The translations under genes and the position numbers were made by a program. 5,822 nucleotides of DNA from Chloroflexota bacterium (GTDB taxonomy: Bacteria > Chloroflexota > Anaerolineae > Promineifilales > Promineifilaceae). Shown in pieces: positions 555-5,822 of the stretch; position 1 is the stretch's first letter, and every line of letters starts with the position of its first letter. The stretch spans positions 1 to 5,822 of the forward strand of contig QQUD01000154.1 in NCBI GenBank assembly GCA_008501785.1, read 5' to 3'. Under the pieces are notes generated by a model, which ran no database searches, had not been told where the DNA came from, and worked only from the letters and a program-made list of their open reading frames with translations.

Positions 555-2123
555 TTATTCCCATTCGATTGTTCCTGGTGGTTTTGACGTGATGTCAAGG
601 ACGACGCGATTCACACCGTTTACTTCGTTGACGATACGACGGCTGACCTTGGCCAGCAAATCATAAGGCAAACGTGCCCAATCGGCCGTCATGAAGTCTT
701 CGGTAGTGACAGCACGCAGTGCAATGACTTCTTGATAGGTACGGCCGTCACCCATCACACCCACACTCTTCACCGGCAGCAGCACCGCAAATGATTGCTG
801 TGTGCCTTGCTTCAGCATATCCGCCTGCCGCAGCTCTGACACAAAAATATCATCTGCCAGCCGCAAATGCTCAAGCCGTTCCCAAGTGATATTGCCCAAA
901 CAGCGAATCGCCAGCCCCGGACCAGGGAATGGTTGTCGCCAAATAATGCTATCTGGCAATCCCAGCCTGGAACCAATCAGACGAACCTCATCTTTAAACA
1001 GTTCGCGCAGCGGTTCAACCAGCTCAAAATCCATGTCATCAGGAAGTCCACCTACATTATGATGAGTTTTAATGACATGGGCTTCTTTTTTGTCCTTCCC
1101 GGCACTCTCAATTACGTCAGGGTATATGGTTCCTTGCGCTAAAAAGTCAATCTGACCCAATTTCAGCGCTTCTCGCTCAAAAATGCGTACAAATTTTTCA
1201 CCAATAATGCGCCGCTTTTCTTCAGGCTCAGTAATGCCATCCAATGCTTCCATGTACTCTTCAACAGCATTAACGGCAATCAAGTTCATGCCCTGCTCTT
1301 TTTCAAAGGTTTCGATAACTTGCAAAGCCTCGCCTTGGCGCAACATGCCATGATCGACAAAGATGCAGATGAGTTGTTCGTCGATGGCTTTGTGGATCAG
1401 CGCCGCAGCTACGGCCGAATCAACACCGCCGCTTAAACCGAGCACAACACGGCCGTTTCCCACCTGCCCCCGAATACCTGCTACCTGCTCATCGATAAAA
1501 TTCGCAGGCGTCCAGTCAGGCATACAGCCACAAATCGACTGTACAAAGTTTTTGAGCAACAATGAACCTTGCGACGTATGCACTACTTCTGGATGAAACT
1601 GTACGGTGTAGCAACCTCGATCCACATCAGCGGCAGCGGCAAAGGGCGAGTTTCCCGAACGCGCCAACGGCACAAACCCATTTGGCAAGCCTTCCACTTT
1701 GTCGCCATGACTCATCCACACTTGCTGCAAGTTTGTCGTTTCAGACGATTCTGCTTGCCAATTTTGAAACAGCGGGTTGTCAGTGGCTTCAATTTCTAAA
1801 GAAGCCGGTCCATATTCACGTTTTTGGCTTTTGGCGACACGGCCACCAAATTTGCGCGTCAATAGCTGCATACCATAACAGATACCCAGCACGGGCACGC
1901 CGCTCTCCAACACATAATCAGGCAATGCGGGTGCGCCTTTGTCATAAACACTGTTGGGGCCTCCACTCAAAATGAAACCTTTGGGACTGAGGGCCAGCAC
2001 GTCAGCGGCTGGTGTACGCCAGGAGATGAGGCGGCTGTACACATTCGCCTCTCGGACTCGCCGCGCAATCAGTTGGGAATATTGGGAACCGTAATCTAAG
2101 ATGACTATTGTATCGTGAGGCAT
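555..2123 (-). CDS. guaA: GMP synthase (glutamine-hydrolysing)
   Basis: This enzyme catalyses the last step of GMP synthesis: XMP + ATP + glutamine + H2O to GMP + AMP + PPi + glutamate, in the cytosol. At 522 residues it has the normal full length. The N-terminal class I glutamine amidotransferase domain (about residues 5-195) has the nucleophile Cys82 in GICYGMQ and the His177/Glu179 pair in QFHPEV. The ATP-pyrophosphatase domain carries the P-loop SGGVDS at residues 231-236. The C-terminal dimerisation and XMP-binding part includes [20 protein letters not shown] and the conserved terminal KPPGTIEWE. All catalytic motifs are intact. The ATG at 2123 has AGGAAG five bases upstream. The gene follows xpt on the same strand with an 86-bp gap holding a long inverted repeat, so the two are probably co-transcribed and act consecutively on XMP. 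No clear intrinsic terminator follows its stop. Confidence 0.98.
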
Positions 2124-2128
2124 TTCTG

Positions 2129-2146
2129 CTTCCTTTTCAACAAGGA
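2129..2146 (-). promoter_or_regulatory. guaA ribosome binding site with possible sequestering hairpin
   Basis: On the minus strand AAGGAAG (2135-2129) lies five bases before the guaA ATG and is its Shine-Dalgarno sequence. The five bases UCCUU (2146-2142), which are the last bases of the long inverted repeat upstream, are perfectly complementary to AAGGA (2135-2131), with a six-base loop between them. The RNA can therefore pair UCCUU either with the far arm of the long stem or with the ribosome binding site. The binding site itself is well supported; the switching idea is inference. Confidence 0.5.
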
Positions 2147-2201
2147 GTAGAGGCTTCAGCCGGAACGGACGTGATAGACCCGGCTAAAGCCTCCACTCCT
2201 T
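2142..2201 (-). repeat. Long imperfect inverted repeat (22-bp stem) between xpt and guaA
   Basis: Arms 2142-2163 and 2180-2201 are complementary over 22 positions, with a 16-base loop (2164-2179). There are only two mismatches, 2149/2194 and 2157/2186. In the minus-strand RNA, the sense direction of xpt and guaA, both become G-U wobbles and the whole stem is paired. In the plus-strand RNA both are A-C mismatches. No run of U follows the stem in the minus direction, so it is not a canonical terminator. Its size, GC-rich arms and intergenic position suggest a dispersed REP- or MITE-like palindrome. It may also act in RNA processing or stability within the xpt-guaA transcript. That it is a multicopy family is inference from form only. 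Confidence 0.75.
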
Positions 2202-2209
2202 AAAAATTT

Positions 2210-2782
2210 TTATGCAACGACAATACGGCCGTTACTCATATCCGTAATCGTCGCCATCGCCACAATCGGCACGTTCCATTGCTCCAATAGTTCGCGCCCA
2301 CCTTCAAAACTCTTTTCAACAACAGCAGCTATCCCCAACAGTTCCGCACCAGCACATTTGATGATACGTACTAAAGCATCAATCGTTTTACCAGAAGCCA
2401 GGAAATCATCTACAATCAAAATCCGATCAGATGCATCCAAAAATTCCGGGGATACCATCAAAGCAACTTCATTTCCTTTTGTATGACTGGGAGCTGTTTC
2501 TATATAAACTGGCTCTTTCATCGTAATTGGCTTACGCTTACGTGCATAGACAACTGGGATATTCCCCATTGCTTTACCCACCATCGCTGCCGGAATTAAA
2601 CCACTGACTTCTGCTGTTAAAATTCTGCTTGGCCTTTTATCGGCAAAAATGCGGCTGATTTCCTCACCGACCTGCTCCATCAACAGTGCATCAATCTGAT
2701 GATTTAAAAAGCTGTCAATCTTTAAAATGCCTCCCCCCAAGTTTTGACCATCTTCGACAATTCTCTTTTTTAACGCTTCCAT
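2210..2782 (-). CDS. xpt: Xanthine phosphoribosyltransferase
   Basis: This purine-salvage enzyme transfers the phosphoribosyl group of PRPP to xanthine, giving XMP in the cytosol. At 190 residues it has about the usual length for Xpt. The N-terminus MEALKKRIVEDG followed by ILKIDSFLNHQID closely matches the Bacillus-type Xpt signature as I recall it. The PRPP-binding loop ILIVDDFLASGKT lies at residues 121-133 with Asp125-Asp126. The ARKRKP segment (80-85) and VVEKSF (154-159) match the conserved ARKHK and EKSF regions of Xpt. The ATG at 2782 has AGGAG twelve bases upstream, a somewhat long spacing. The next gene, guaA, uses the XMP product, which supports the call. Adenine phosphoribosyltransferase is the main alternative, but the Xpt-specific N-terminus argues against it. 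No purine riboswitch is visible upstream, unlike in many Firmicutes. Confidence 0.93.
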   Translation of the reverse strand: MEALKKRIVEDGQNLGGGILKIDSFLNHQIDALLMEQVGEEISRIFADKRPSRILTAEVSGLIPAAMVGKAMGNIPVVYARKRKPITMKEPVYIETAPSHTKGNEVALMVSPEFLDASDRILIVDDFLASGKTIDALVRIIKCAGAELLGIAAVVEKSFEGGRELLEQWNVPIVAMATITDMSNGRIVVA

Positions 2783-2840
2783 ACTGTTACCAGGCTCCTA
2801 TTTTCTTTTTCTCATTGCAAAACATCTATTTTTTACTATG

Positions 2841-2868
2841 ATTATGATCAAAATGACGTTTTGTTTAA
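2841..2868 (-). promoter_or_regulatory. Weak candidate promoter for xpt-guaA
   Basis: On the minus strand CATAAT (2846-2841), one mismatch from the sigma70 -10 consensus, is preceded at 16 bp by TTAAAC (2868-2863), a poor -35 box. An inverted repeat TGACG (2854-2858) / CGTCA (2874-2878) with a 15-bp spacer overlaps the -35 region and could be an operator. The surrounding DNA is AT-rich, as is typical for promoters. The evidence is weak, and other placements within 2800-2970 are possible. Confidence 0.3.
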
Positions 2869-2973
2869 TTATGCGTCACAGGTAACGTATTGGGCAAACA
2901 TATTGGGAAGGTAAATTTCTTTAAAGTGGGATGAGACCACACGGTCCTAATTGCTATTTCTTTCACAAATTGC

Positions 2974-3002
2974 TTGACGGTGGGTAGGGACTATTCTATA
3001 AT
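2974..3002 (+). promoter_or_regulatory. Near-consensus sigma70-type promoter for polyprenyl synthase
   Basis: TTGACG at 2974-2979 (5 of 6 matches to the -35 consensus) is followed by exactly 17 bp and then a perfect TATAAT at 2997-3002. Transcription would start near 3009, about 43 bases before the ATG at 3052. The -35 box itself supplies a TTG that opens the longest reading frame, so that upstream start cannot be used on a transcript from this promoter. The promoter points only towards the synthase gene. Confidence 0.85.
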
Positions 3003-3051
3003 TCAACAAAACGTTCAAAAAAAATTGAAAGTTGTGAACGAGGCATATCAT

Positions 3052-3990
3052 ATGAATAATTTAACCGTTGCAGAGGCGCTAACGGCCGTTGAAAATAAGC
3101 TTGAATCTATTGTTGACAGCGAAGTTGAACTACTGGGGGATGCCGGACGGCACATCATTTCGTCAGGTGGCAAACGCATTCGCCCGCACCTGGCAATTCT
3201 GGCTTTTTTGGCCACCGGTGGCCACCCAATTGAAGCAGTCGTACCAATGGCGGCAGCGGTTGAAATGGTTCACACCGCAACGCTCGTACACGACGACATT
3301 AACGATCACAGCTCCACGCGTCGTGGCAAAATTACAGTCCATGAAAAATGGGGAAAAACATTTGCGCTGCTAACCGGCGATTATCTGTTTGCCAAAGTGT
3401 ATGAGCTGATGGCCCCTTATGGCACAAATTTCAACGTCATTATGGCAGATGCGTGTATTCGCCTGGTTGAAGGGGAAACATTGCAAGCCGCCGCCGCAAA
3501 ATCGGGCCAAATGGGACGCGAAACATACAAACGTATCATTGCATTGAAAACGGCCAGCCTTTTTGAGGCAGCGGCCCGAATGGGTGCAATGATTAGCAAA
3601 GCCAGTGAAGCGATGGTCAATGCAGCTGCTGACTACGCCTACAACTTAGGACTTGCTTTCCAAATTGTAGATGACATTCTCGACATCATTGGCGATCCAG
3701 AAACACTGGGTAAACCGGTTGGCACTGATGTAGCGCAAAATCGGGGCGTAATGGCTACGCGAAATGGCGGATTTGCACCGGTGATGGAAGAGGTAACGGC
3801 CGTTGCCGAAGCCGACCCAATCGAACAAATGATGAGTAAATTGCGGGAATCAGGGGCAGTGGAAATCGCCCGGTTGCAAGCTATTGAAGTGGCAGAAAGA
3901 GCACGAACTGCACTTTATAAAATCCCATCTTCCACCTACCGCGACGAAATGGAATCACTGATTGATTTGGTACTTGACAGACAAAATTAA
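3052..3990 (+). CDS. Trans-polyprenyl diphosphate synthase (probably long-chain)
   Basis: This cytosolic or peripheral enzyme adds isopentenyl diphosphate units to an allylic primer; products of the family feed quinone side chains and carrier lipids. The 312 residues from the ATG at 3052 fit the family. They contain GGKRIRP (39-45), the first Asp-rich motif DDIND (81-85) followed by RRG (90-92), LLTGDYLFA, and the second Asp-rich motif DDILD (207-211). The fifth residue before the first motif is Ala76; small residues there are typical of long-chain synthases such as IspB and heptaprenyl synthase. ATG 3052 is chosen because GAGG (3040-3043) precedes it by 8 bases and the promoter ends at 3002; an in-frame TTG at 2974 lies inside the -35 box. 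The segment after the second motif (GTDVAQNRGVMATRNGG, 224-240) departs from the usual Lys/Thr-containing G-K-x-T-like pattern. Chain length and pathway are not certain. Confidence 0.93.
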   Translation: MNNLTVAEALTAVENKLESIVDSEVELLGDAGRHIISSGGKRIRPHLAILAFLATGGHPIEAVVPMAAAVEMVHTATLVHDDINDHSSTRRGKITVHEKWGKTFALLTGDYLFAKVYELMAPYGTNFNVIMADACIRLVEGETLQAAAAKSGQMGRETYKRIIALKTASLFEAAARMGAMISKASEAMVNAAADYAYNLGLAFQIVDDILDIIGDPETLGKPVGTDVAQNRGVMATRNGGFAPVMEEVTAVAEADPIEQMMSKLRESGAVEIARLQAIEVAERARTALYKIPSSTYRDEMESLIDLVLDRQN

Positions 3991-4018
3991 GCAATTCCTG
4001 ACATCTTTTTTCGGATCA

Positions 4019-5230
4019 CTAAACGGGAATTTGTTCACCCACAACGGGCAGCTGCATAATAAATGTGCTGCCCGTTTTGTATGTGCCATCGCTTTCTACC
4101 CAAATACGGCCGTTATGCGCCTCCACCACCAATTTGCAATAAGGTAACCCCAACCCCGTGCCACGGCGCTGCCTGCGCTGCCGTCGATCATGACGAAACT
4201 TTTTAAAAATTTGACGATGCAAGTCAGGTCTAATGCCAGGTCCATTGTCACTGATGCCAATCAGCATGGTTGGTTTTTCGTTTGATACAAAATCCATGCG
4301 AGACCAGAGACGAATACGGCCGTTATCTGGCGCATATTTCACGGCATTATCCAATAAATTTATCACAGCACGTTTCAAATACCCCACATCAACCGTCAGC
4401 AACGGCAAATCCGGTTCCAAATCGATCTCAATATCAATCCCCGCATCTTCAGCCAAAGGCTCAAGCTGCGTTTTCGCTTCCGTTAACAACATAGAAATAG
4501 GAATTGGTTCTGGAACCAGGTCTAATTCACCACTTTCCAATTTGTACATATCTAACAAATCATTAAGCAAGCCAAGTAGGCGCTGTCCACTGGATCGTGC
4601 AATCTCGAACAGCCTGTCTGTTTCATCCAGGCGATTATTTTCGAGCCAAACCTGTGCGGTCTCAATGCTGCCTAACATCACTGCCAAAGGCGATCTCAAA
4701 TCATGTACGAGCATATGCGTCATATCTTCACGCATTTGCGCCAGGGCATGCGCTTCGGTCACATCATGCAGCATCAGCAGCCAACCGGTCAGTTTTTCGT
4801 GATCAAATACCGGGCACAATGTTCGTTCAAAATAGTCGTCAGGCGGCCCATAAATCGTGATCGTTTCTTTCTGTCGATTTGCACCAGACGCCATTGAATC
4901 GCAAGCATTTTGAAAAAAATTCAAATCAAAATTTAATCGAGACAGAATAGAGGGTGTGTTTTCTGGCCAAGAAACGGCCGTTTTCCCCACCATCTCCCCT
5001 AAACACAAGTTTACAACCTCAGCAAATGCTTTGTTTGTCGTCACGACCTTAAAGTCTGTGTCAAGTAACAAGATGCCATCTTCATTGAGCGCCATGACAG
5101 GATTTAATTCTGTTACTTGCCTCGCCAACGCCTGATTCTTTCTGGATATGGCCTGATTGCGAAAAGTAAGTGCTATGATTAGAACGATGGTGATACAGAG
5201 TGCGATGATTAGCCAGAAATTGATGCTCAT
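4019..5230 (-). CDS. Membrane-anchored PAS-domain sensor histidine kinase
   Basis: This protein senses a signal and autophosphorylates on histidine for transfer to a response regulator. One N-terminal transmembrane helix (about residues 5-22) is followed by a short basic linker that may be coiled, and then a PAS domain (about 44-160, ending WLLMLHDVTEAHA). The HisKA H-box HDLRSPL has the phospho-acceptor His176. The HATPase_c domain has N-box Asn291/Asn295 (NLLDNAVKYAP), G1 SDNGPGI (327-333), F-box IFKKF (341-345) and G2 GTGLGL (357-362). There is almost no periplasmic part, so the signal is probably cytoplasmic or in the membrane. The ATP lid is unusually basic (RRQRRQRR, 349-356). The ATG at 5230 has only a weak purine-rich AGAAG upstream. 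No response regulator gene is adjacent, so the kinase looks orphan within this window. The gene is convergent with the polyprenyl synthase, with 28 bp between stops. Ligand and partner are unknown. Confidence 0.95.
   Translation of the reverse strand: MSINFWLIIALCITIVLIIALTFRNQAISRKNQALARQVTELNPVMALNEDGILLLDTDFKVVTTNKAFAEVVNLCLGEMVGKTAVSWPENTPSILSRLNFDLNFFQNACDSMASGANRQKETITIYGPPDDYFERTLCPVFDHEKLTGWLLMLHDVTEAHALAQMREDMTHMLVHDLRSPLAVMLGSIETAQVWLENNRLDETDRLFEIARSSGQRLLGLLNDLLDMYKLESGELDLVPEPIPISMLLTEAKTQLEPLAEDAGIDIEIDLEPDLPLLTVDVGYLKRAVINLLDNAVKYAPDNGRIRLWSRMDFVSNEKPTMLIGISDNGPGIRPDLHRQIFKKFRHDRRQRRQRRGTGLGLPYCKLVVEAHNGRIWVESDGTYKTGSTFIMQLPVVGEQIPV
4043..4080 (+). terminator. Terminator-like hairpin for polyprenyl synthase, inside the kinase 3' end
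   Basis: A perfect 10-bp stem, AACGGGCAGC (4043-4052) with GCTGCCCGTT (4067-4076), has a 14-base loop and is followed by TTGT on the plus strand. The last stem bases and tail together give TTTTGT. It lies 53 bases after the synthase stop, in the orientation expected for an intrinsic terminator. It overlaps the last coding codons of the convergent histidine kinase, so the same DNA both encodes protein and probably ends the opposing transcript. The U-tract is short, so strength is uncertain. Confidence 0.6.
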
Positions 5231-5256
5231 AAATTTTTCTTTACTTCTTAGGAAAC

Positions 5257-5272
5257 GGGATTAGGAAATCCC
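5257..5272. repeat. Small perfect hairpin in histidine kinase leader
   Basis: GGGATT (5257-5262) and AATCCC (5267-5272) form a perfect 6-bp inverted repeat with a 4-base loop, 27-42 bases upstream of the kinase start. Two direct copies of TTAGGAAA (5248-5255 and 5261-5268), 13 bp apart, overlap it. This could be an operator or a leader hairpin. Both are short enough to arise by chance in AT-rich DNA. Confidence 0.35.
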
Positions 5273-5326
5273 TCAAAACTTTGAAAAAATAAAACTGTCA
5301 ATCAGTAGGGCAAAAAACCTTTCAAT

Positions 5327-5355
5327 ATAGTAATCAGATCAGCACCCGGTTTCAA
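5327..5355 (-). promoter_or_regulatory. Candidate sigma70-type promoter for the histidine kinase
   Basis: On the minus strand TTGAAA (5355-5350; 5 of 6 matches) is followed after exactly 17 bp by TACTAT (5332-5327; 4 of 6 matches). This would give a leader of roughly 90 bases that contains the 5257-5272 hairpin. A perfect TTGACA (5301-5296) also occurs closer to the gene but lacks a convincing -10 box at 16-18 bp. No equally good promoter was found on the plus strand for the divergent Clp-like gene. Confidence 0.4.
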
Positions 5356-5442
5356 CTAAATTATGACAAAACACCCATTACCAAATTCCTATATACGCTA
5401 AAATTGTGGCATATCCGGGTCGAGCGTTGTACCATATTTAAC

Positions 5443-5822
5443 ATGAGCAATTTAAACCCAAACATCCCGTCTACAGAACTTTCACGGCTAATGACAACGG
5501 CCGTTTCCCGTCAAAAAGAGTTTCAGCTCAAACTACTCACGCCACAGCTATTGCTGCGCGTTATCCTCGACGAAAAAGAGGCAGCCGCGCATAAAATATT
5601 GCAACAGCTGCAAAAACAGCGCGGGTTTGATTGGAACGATTTAGAGCGTCGTGTCGATTTAATGACGCACCACACCAAAGGCCAAGACGCAAAATTCTAT
5701 TTCACAGACGATTTTGGCAAGGACACGCCCTTAGCAAACGAAATGCTGGTTGTGATCGATGAAGGGCGAACAATTGCTCAGGCCCGTGAAGAGCTAAAAG
5801 GAGGCAGTTGTCACGCGCTGGC
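5443..5822 (+). CDS. Clp N-domain protein (ClpC/ClpB-like), C-terminally truncated by window edge
   Basis: The open frame starts at ATG 5443 and leaves the window after 126 codons. The visible part looks like the double Clp_N repeat that heads ClpA/ClpB/ClpC ATPases and binds substrates or adaptors. The first repeat is about residues 11-57 (SRLMTTAVSRQKEF, LLTPQLLLRVILDEKEAAAHKILQQL). The second is about residues 95-126 (TPLANEMLVVIDEGRTIAQA, ending GGSCHALA), which matches the usual TP-x-x-x-x-VL-x-x-A and G-x-x-HLL layout. No AAA+ module is in view, so a full Clp ATPase and a stand-alone Clp_N protein cannot be told apart. No clear Shine-Dalgarno sequence precedes the ATG, and an in-frame TTG at 5404 is a possible but less attractive start. 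The gene is divergent from the histidine kinase with a 212-bp gap. A role in protein quality control is inferred from the domain only. Confidence 0.8.
   Translation, partial: MSNLNPNIPSTELSRLMTTAVSRQKEFQLKLLTPQLLLRVILDEKEAAAHKILQQLQKQRGFDWNDLERRVDLMTHHTKGQDAKFYFTDDFGKDTPLANEMLVVIDEGRTIAQAREELKGGSCHAL

Follow-up and report, generated by a model that had tools for sequence, protein, structure and literature searches.

An octameric palindrome of one Chloroflexota lineage resembles the cyanobacterial HIP1 in behaviour but has a different core

The main finding of this work is that the octamer ACGGCCGT is a genuine highly iterated palindrome, similar to HIP1 in its behaviour and different from it in core and phylum. 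The puzzle it poses has so far been met chiefly in cyanobacteria, and the present case is independent of those. HIP1, which like the octamer reported here is mostly coding, was described in 1995 and its purpose has been debated ever since. With a second phylum, several dialects and some viral DNA dense in the word, comparison can now separate the rival ideas of methyl-directed repair, uptake, recombination and self-marking. HIP1 (GCGATCGC) and the alternate HIPs are cyanobacterial octameric palindromes with ~500-2500 copies per Mb; one-base variants of HIP1 mostly affect its two terminal bases, and other palindromes replace it in some relatives (Elhai, 2015; excerpt of PMC4390886). The Chloroflexota word is likewise a GC-rich octameric palindrome with an abundance in this range (one genome, G023, lies below it), mainly outermost one-base variants and alternate palindromes in some relatives. 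Gross octamer over-representation, first- and last-base deviations and alternate palindromes in relatives make it a HIP in Elhai's sense, although it is not HIP1 proper, that is, GCGATCGC in cyanobacteria. Unlike HIP1, its core is CGGCCG and not CGATCG, its outer base varies among the Chloroflexota relatives and one of these has a TGCCGGCA core. The tripeptide excess and viral carriage reported below are not described for HIP1 in the excerpt of PMC4390886, from which the term phage is absent.

The window, by which we mean the whole stretch of 5,822 bp that was analysed, contains nine exact copies of ACGGCCGT (Table 1) against 0.07 expected, and none of 200 dinucleotide shuffles reached nine. 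The first-pass annotation had described these copies as far beyond chance, all coding, spread over five unrelated genes on both strands and in four cases extended to AACGGCCGTT, and each of these points was confirmed: nine of nine lie inside called genes, and the five ORFs carry Pfam families with one exception. The gaps between neighbouring copies, recomputed as 708, 776, 857, 714, 310, 210, 658 and 523 bp, reproduced the range of 210-857 bp given earlier. The encoded tripeptides are NGR (four copies), TAV (four) and DGR (one), corresponding to two codon phases.

Table 1. Octamer copies in the window and the genes that carry them
Feature	Position	Strand	Remarks
ACGGCCGT copy 1	741..748		exact match; within guaA
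ACGGCCGT copy 2	1449..1456		exact match; within guaA
ACGGCCGT copy 3	2225..2232		exact match; within phosphoribosyltransferase gene
ACGGCCGT copy 4, as AACGGCCGTT	3082..3089		within polyprenyl synthetase gene
ACGGCCGT copy 5, as AACGGCCGTT	3796..3803		within polyprenyl synthetase gene
ACGGCCGT copy 6	4106..4113		exact match; within histidine kinase gene
ACGGCCGT copy 7	4316..4323		exact match; within histidine kinase gene
ACGGCCGT copy 8, as AACGGCCGTT	4974..4981		within histidine kinase gene
ACGGCCGT copy 9, as AACGGCCGTT	5497..5504		within partial ORF, window end
GMP synthase (guaA), copies 1-2	555..2123	-	Pfam GATase, GMP_synt_C
Phosphoribosyltransferase, copy 3	2210..2782	-	Pfam Pribosyltran; presumably xanthine type
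Polyprenyl synthetase, copies 4-5	2974..3990	+	Pfam polyprenyl_synt
PAS histidine kinase, copies 6-8	4019..5230	-	Pfam PAS_4, HisKA, HATPase_c
Partial ORF, copy 9	5443..5822	+	no Pfam family (5443-5820 scanned)

Relatives were retrieved using the polyprenyl synthetase of the window as query; most of their records bear MAG titles, and parts of these genomes may be missing. ACGGCCGT is the single dominant octamer in 24 of the 45 related genomes, where it has 2,887-15,176 copies (0.4-2.1 per kb); the reversed word has 40-459. Other relatives use the dialects GCGGCCGC, WTCGGCCGAW, bare CGGCCG (the hexamer class) or, in one genome, the different core TGCCGGCA, the outer base being A, T or G (A..T, T..A and G..C dialects). 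The octamer class comprises 28 of 56 genomes of the order, leaving out the hexamer-class G036 (2,982 copies). Expressed per Mb, 21 of the 24 A..T genomes have ~1,100-2,100 copies, G007 and G011 ~990 and G023 ~440. When 8-mers counted 40 times or more in 639,850 bp are ranked, the octamer shows the highest observed/expected ratio, the runner-up palindrome reaching 1.5. The genome-wide signal comparable to HIP1 that had been proposed from the window is therefore upheld in its relatives, where the genome-wide count greatly exceeds that of the control word. Since these relatives share both the genes of the window and the octamer, the conclusion that the window copies belong to a genome-wide palindrome is supported.

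Codon-pair preference, named by the first-pass annotation as what could refute it, or a composition artefact would fit the window, where all nine copies are coding and occupy two codon phases. This explanation is hardly credible for the relatives, in which the octamer uses all three reading phases (94, 50 and 25 sites in G002) as well as noncoding DNA, exceeds synonymous shuffles 10-14x in five octamer genomes, and imposes tripeptides that follow the DNA word, relatives with another dialect being enriched instead for Ala-Ala-Ala or Ser-Ala-Glu with their own word. The restriction to two frames consequently stands for the window (TAV, NGR/DGR) and not beyond it. In the G002 sample, Thr-Ala-Val was observed 96 times against 12 expected and was octamer-coded in 98% of cases; with this eightfold over-abundance, the DNA word overrides protein sequence genome-wide. 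Conservation between relatives also goes beyond codon expectation, as conserved Thr-Ala-Val in ortholog pairs had the octamer on both sides in 226 of 245 cases and on neither side in 0 (pairs not independent), against 14-56% matching, by divergence bin, for other conserved 4-fold codon pairs.

We hypothesize, with about even confidence for and against, that ACGGCCGT is a true HIP of one Chloroflexota lineage whose sites are used by a cellular protein that binds or modifies DNA in a sequence-specific manner. Such use would result in a site every ~0.5-2 kb, and selection or biased repair would keep the sites strongly enough to alter proteins. The mark would most likely be a methyl group placed on the CGGCCG core, or else on the outer A, by a conserved orphan DUF1156-like methyltransferase; it may serve DNA maintenance or self-recognition, with resident phages adapted to it. 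Which enzyme writes the mark is the least secure part of this explanation. The relatives of the window do display genome-wide excess, codon independence and a core without accumulating one-base variants, together with outer-base dialects, and certain viral or mobile sequences share the word.

The methyltransferase families PF00145, PF01555 and PF02086 were searched for a writer. The orphan DUF1156-like methyltransferase (690 aa) is present in 25 of 26 octamer genomes, G021 being the one where it was not found, and was found in none of five hexamer genomes (Fisher p 3.5e-5, kinship ignored); kinship alone could be the source of this association. It is also present in 9 of the 54 genomes in which no octamer dominates. 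The orphan methylase anticipated earlier has a candidate in this enzyme, though not one confined to octamer genomes. Site density at its loci is 1.33x that of the genome; m5C loci have 0.69x and other PF01555 loci 0.80x. By association, this enzyme is the best candidate for the octamer's writer, and a role of the octamer as modification target is plausible. It carries a DPPY motif, which is commoner in m6A enzymes; the GCGGCCGC dialect contains no A. Its predicted structure (pLDDT 84.9, 658 residues) best matched Trm11 and CcrM, over 152-189 columns with TM 0.12-0.16, matches too short and weak for its specificity to be read from them. The m5C methyltransferases (PF00145) were rejected as common writer, being matched in only 19 of 45 genomes and not in the octamer genomes G001, G002, G003, G006, G007, G008, G009, G010, G014, G023 and G038. 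Among the matches listed, no other PF01555 enzyme is common to all octamer genomes, because the one hit of G023 and the two hits of G015 are the 690-aa protein itself. PF02086 matched 41 of 50 genomes; among the octamer genomes, G003 and G007 had no match and G014 had weak matches only; the 30 loci examined (second copies left out), which we take to be Dam-like from their KWAGGK- and DPPYxPL-type motifs, occur with and without the octamer. A trace of m5C deamination was also sought, and C-to-T changes showed no marked excess (1.29x, 0.91x and 1.50x). In the CL500-11 Anaerolineae, the methylome motifs given in the excerpt of PMC6329791 are GANTC, TTAA and GCWGC, and the excerpt of PMC12772301 assigns no methylation motif to its Chloroflexota host.

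In the model that Elhai put forward for HIP1, mismatch repair is guided by a methylated core and converts near-matches into the octamer, which would itself be functionless. We consider such a mutational drive possible but somewhat unlikely here. MutL_C was found in 42 of 46 genomes, and one-base variants cluster on the outer bases as in HIP1 (PMC4390886, excerpt): in A..T hosts, core changes amount to 0.37-1.50 of expectation and outer ones to 2.0-8.8, and the clustering at first and last base is clear in A..T and weaker in G..C and T..A, with small counts. The drive would also affect DNA replicating in the cell and, as it predicts, 7 of 10 viral loci have a higher site density in their noncoding than in their coding DNA; in the hosts, however, coding DNA is the denser in 7 of 8 sampled genomes, G032 being slightly reversed. 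Moreover, the model needs a G beside the methylated C (PMC4390886, excerpt), which the A..T and T..A dialects lack if the outer C is methylated, although a methylated inner C (GGC) would supply it. Octamer Thr-Ala-Val positions show below-average conservation (identity 0.40 vs 0.61), a point counted against the drive that either drive or selection could produce.

The octamer might also be a DNA uptake sequence, favoured by the transformation machinery and spread by recombination, a reading that we find rather improbable. The USS and DUS of Pasteurellaceae and Neisseriaceae occur roughly once per kb, near the 0.4-2.1 per kb of the octamer, and have lineage dialects as it does. Unlike these, the octamer is palindromic (we know of no palindromic uptake word) and dense in some phage contigs; an uptake word should be enriched in the host and not in phage, yet viral loci, selected by the pattern, carry it and some exceed host averages. 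Certain viral or mobile contigs, themselves selected by the pattern, reach 3-3.7 octamers per kb. Six loci of T..A phages have 3-7 copies each, none being clearly saturated, and none of 49 pattern-matched viral stretches encodes a relative of the 690-aa methyltransferase.

A further reading, which we regard as unlikely, is that the palindrome acts as a password for the whole genome, so that DNA bearing enough marked sites counts as self and other DNA is attacked or lost. Because non-marked DNA would be attacked, resident phages and plasmids would load the octamer beyond host density. If true, an arms race would lead to dialect switches (A..T, T..A, G..C, TGCCGGCA), each of which would exchange about ten thousand sites along with many amino acids. 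The letters of the core and of the GCGGCCGC dialect are identical to the EagI (CGGCCG) and NotI sites. Restriction-modification sites are usually avoided, whereas CGGCCG-based words are enriched here, and a target of that kind, avoided in genome and phages, was rejected. By comparison, 17 other Anaerolineae, most of them picked for low octamer counts, do avoid CGGCCG (13-226 copies vs 164-6,096 of GCCGGC).

A binding site for a nucleoid, segregation or recombination protein, with no modification involved, appears rather improbable to us. In some dialects the site extends past eight bases (WTCGGCCGAW holds for 182/200 and 64/67 sites) and G is weakly preferred at -3 and -4 in A..T hosts, both in favour of such binding, but copies are spaced almost at random and no signal appeared at periods of 10, 10.5 and 11 bp in stretches of octamer genomes. 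With a spacing CV of 0.83-1.01 in seven stretches of six octamer genomes, the even spacing noted in the window (CV 0.36, n=9 only) does not extend to the relatives as a general trait; G032 and G038 are slightly more even than random. The strand-averaged flank preference is weak, reaches -4, includes noncoding sites and is absent in the hexamer class. In the pooled A..T hosts, no flanking position up to ten bases away carries more than 0.21 bit of information; at -1 the value is 0.53 in G002 and up to 0.96 in T..A. An interspersed, REP-like repeat family was dismissed since there is no long common flank in the pooled A..T hosts. Conversion of sites in place between dialects was also rejected, ACGGCCGT being found at 0 of 91 aligned octamers of a G..C genome and 0 of 83 of a T..A genome. 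Sites therefore mostly turn over; GCGGCCGC stood at 7 of the 91 in the G..C genome, at least five of these being one methyltransferase-gene site in several pairs.

The octamer ACGGCCGT, an 8-bp palindrome with a CGGCCG core, was seen nine times in the window against 0.07 expected, and re-checking confirmed the copy positions, spacing and four AACGGCCGTT extensions reported in the first-pass annotation, as well as the five genes hit (guaA, a phosphoribosyltransferase, a polyprenyl synthetase, a PAS histidine kinase and an unassigned partial ORF). The suggestion that these copies belong to a highly iterated palindrome (HIP) proved real and broader than first claimed: judged by sequence, ACGGCCGT in these Chloroflexota works like a HIP and has the sequence features of one; its function and its link to an enzyme are unproven. 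The genome-wide evidence comes from relatives' genomes, not from that of the window. Searching with the window's polyprenyl synthetase recovered 80 loci, 78 of them titled Chloroflexota of some kind; ACGGCCGT was the commonest 8-base palindrome in 22 of the first 30, and the 39 most distant (L042-L080) held four copies altogether. In a tree (quick search, support 83) the window's synthetase grouped amid octamer genomes. Contigs titled Pleurocapsa minor (L064) and Saprospiraceae (L030), probably mislabelled bins, carry synthetases 50% and 58% identical to it.

As predicted, over-representation extends across whole genomes: 24 of 45 contained 2,887-15,176 copies (0.4-2.1 per kb, one dominant octamer), against 40-459 copies of the same word reversed. 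Of 199 genomes sampled from the class, only G001, G002, G021 and G038 held more than 5,000 octamers, followed by G193 with 1,727, and the order of G002 showed at least 2,887 copies in 28 of 56 genomes, plus G036, a bare-CGGCCG (hexamer) genome with 2,982. This order is probably Promineifilales, since two proteins labelled Candidatus Leptofilum, placed there by NCBI, are 85-86% identical to the G002 methyltransferase. The even spacing in the window does not generalize: relatives are near random, slightly more even in G032 and G038, and it is therefore chance or local.

Relatives use different versions of the word. G019 prefers GCGGCCGC (12,040 among 13,814 CGGCCG) and G032 prefers TCGGCCGA (7,668 among 9,713), with ACGGCCGT scarce in both (83 and 85 copies, respectively); G239 likewise relies on TCGGCCGA (67 in 64.7 kb, partly masked). 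In G240, of the same order, the leading palindrome is TGCCGGCA, with a GCCGGC core (41 in 40.6 kb at loci L400-L403; 3,665 genome-wide). The hexamer class (G027, G031, G034, G036 and G193) has 19,809-25,568 CGGCCG with no dominant outer base, versus 132-7,284 GCCGGC. The T..A site is effectively ten bases, WTCGGCCGAW (182/200 in G032, 64/67 in G239). Around A..T sites, averaging both strands, G is preferred at -3 and -4 and, when pooled, A at -1, also at noncoding sites; G005 is an exception, with C at -1. No more than 0.03 bit of flank signal was seen for 570 sites of the hexamer class or for two control words with 233 and 261 sites; a third control with only 22 sites gave noisy flanks, up to 0.16 bit. 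G019, the genome of the G..C dialect, strongly avoids GCCGGC (just 51 occurrences in 8 Mb) and has only two copies of CGCCGGCG. In 17 of 80 Anaerolineae genomes (e.g., G041, G042, G044, G045, G064, G096 and G167) CGGCCG is nearly absent (13-226 copies), and GGCC is almost missing too at the G041 and G042 loci (2 in 19.4 kb and 1 in 10.1 kb), as if under restriction pressure.

Codon preference, the rival that the first-pass annotation itself raised, does not account for the word. In samples of 60-100 kb from five octamer genomes, sites occupied noncoding DNA and all three codon phases, so that the two-frame limit noted in the window is not general, and exceeded synonymous-codon shuffles 10-14 times (6-8 times in three hexamer samples). 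Coding density exceeded noncoding in seven of eight host samples, G032 being slightly reversed. The encoded tripeptides are themselves in excess: Thr-Ala-Val in G002 (96 vs 12 expected, 94 octamer-coded), Ala-Ala-Ala in G019 (86 vs 21) and Ser-Ala-Glu in G032 (61 vs 9). The Thr-Ala-Val excess was small in two hexamer samples (9 vs 5 and 8 vs 4) and absent in distant genomes (41 vs 67). Where this tripeptide is conserved between octamer genomes (245 pairs), the octamer stood in both members in 226, in one in 19 and in neither in 0; for Asn/Asp/His/Tyr-Gly-Arg the counts were 243, 51 and 1, the pairs sharing genes and thus not being independent. Octamer-encoded Thr-Ala-Val matched site-free homologs at 0.40 and Gly-Arg contexts at 0.67, versus 0.61 for other T, A, V, N, D, G and R residues, and the word therefore appears both to have picked codons and to have altered amino acids.

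At aligned positions, octamer genomes had 1,189 of 2,615 sites in common (median protein identity 72%), and aligned octamers were kept in 0/91 cases in the G..C genome and 0/83 in the T..A genome. One-base changes within CGGCCG stood at 0.37-1.50 of expectation in A..T hosts and outer-A changes at 2.0-8.8 times expectation; in the other two dialects, counts were small and values scattered.

Octamer-saturated viral or mobile elements also exist. IMG/VR scans for three close octamers and for octamer pairs gave 14 and at least 120 loci, respectively; at least 1 per kb and at least five copies were found in 31 of 137 counted (six from a T..A scan), which, being selected by octamer pattern, show existence and not frequency. 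One 65.5-kb contig is represented by two pieces, L270 with 48 copies (3.5 per kb) and L321 with 47 (3.6 per kb); genes for major head, head morphogenesis, portal and terminase proteins lie on L270. L264, part of a 100-kb contig that bears ParA and FtsK-like genes, has 49 copies in 13.2 kb, 18 of them within 2.6 kb of noncoding DNA. Opposite to hosts, noncoding DNA was the denser in 7 of 10 such loci. The octamer was absent from a 3.2-kb prophage-like piece of G001.

Elhai's survey of 97 cyanobacteria (PMC4390886) describes a HIP1 that resembles this octamer in density, outer-base variation and sporadic replacement by other palindromes. Its repair model, as given there, requires a G adjoining the methylated C; if the outer C carried the methyl group, that G would be missing from the A..T and T..A dialects. 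A search of that paper's text found none of CGGCCG, Chloroflex or phage, and no report of a Chloroflexota HIP stood among the open-licence papers listed.

There is a candidate for the orphan methylase that the first-pass annotation proposed looking for. Among the matches listed for families PF00145, PF01555 and PF02086, the only protein spread over octamer genomes and tied to them was a 690-aa PF01555/DUF1156-like one with permuted motifs (DPMMGGGTT ahead of DPPY), a putative writer of an octamer mark whose role is unproven. The octamer genomes number 26 (24 A..T genomes, G019 and G032); at >50% identity the protein is present in 25 of them, G021 being the one in which it was not found, but also in 9 of 54 others, among which the five hexamer genomes had none. 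Kinship alone could lie behind this link, and the enzyme occurs without a strong octamer in a GC-rich clade (G012, G020, G028 and G033; its locus L020 is titled Promineifilum). Several gene copies are truncated where a contig stops short or are interrupted by stops or frameshifts. Five loci read showed no evident endonuclease among the neighbours, which we take to be a P450-like gene, a MoxR-type ATPase and a PucR-like regulator. Octamer density relative to the genome was 1.33x at these loci and 1.28x at Dam-like loci, versus 0.69x at m5C and 0.80x at other PF01555 loci; such site-rich surroundings fit an old resident enzyme, but kinship by itself could yield this pattern too. Weak PF01555 matches in hexamer genomes (L150 in G034, L151 in G031) are presumably, by their look, RlmL/Trm11-type RNA methyltransferases and not DNA enzymes. 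Many of these genomes also encode Dam-like methyltransferases (L233-L262), which bring to mind the GATC enzyme found alongside cyanobacterial HIP1.
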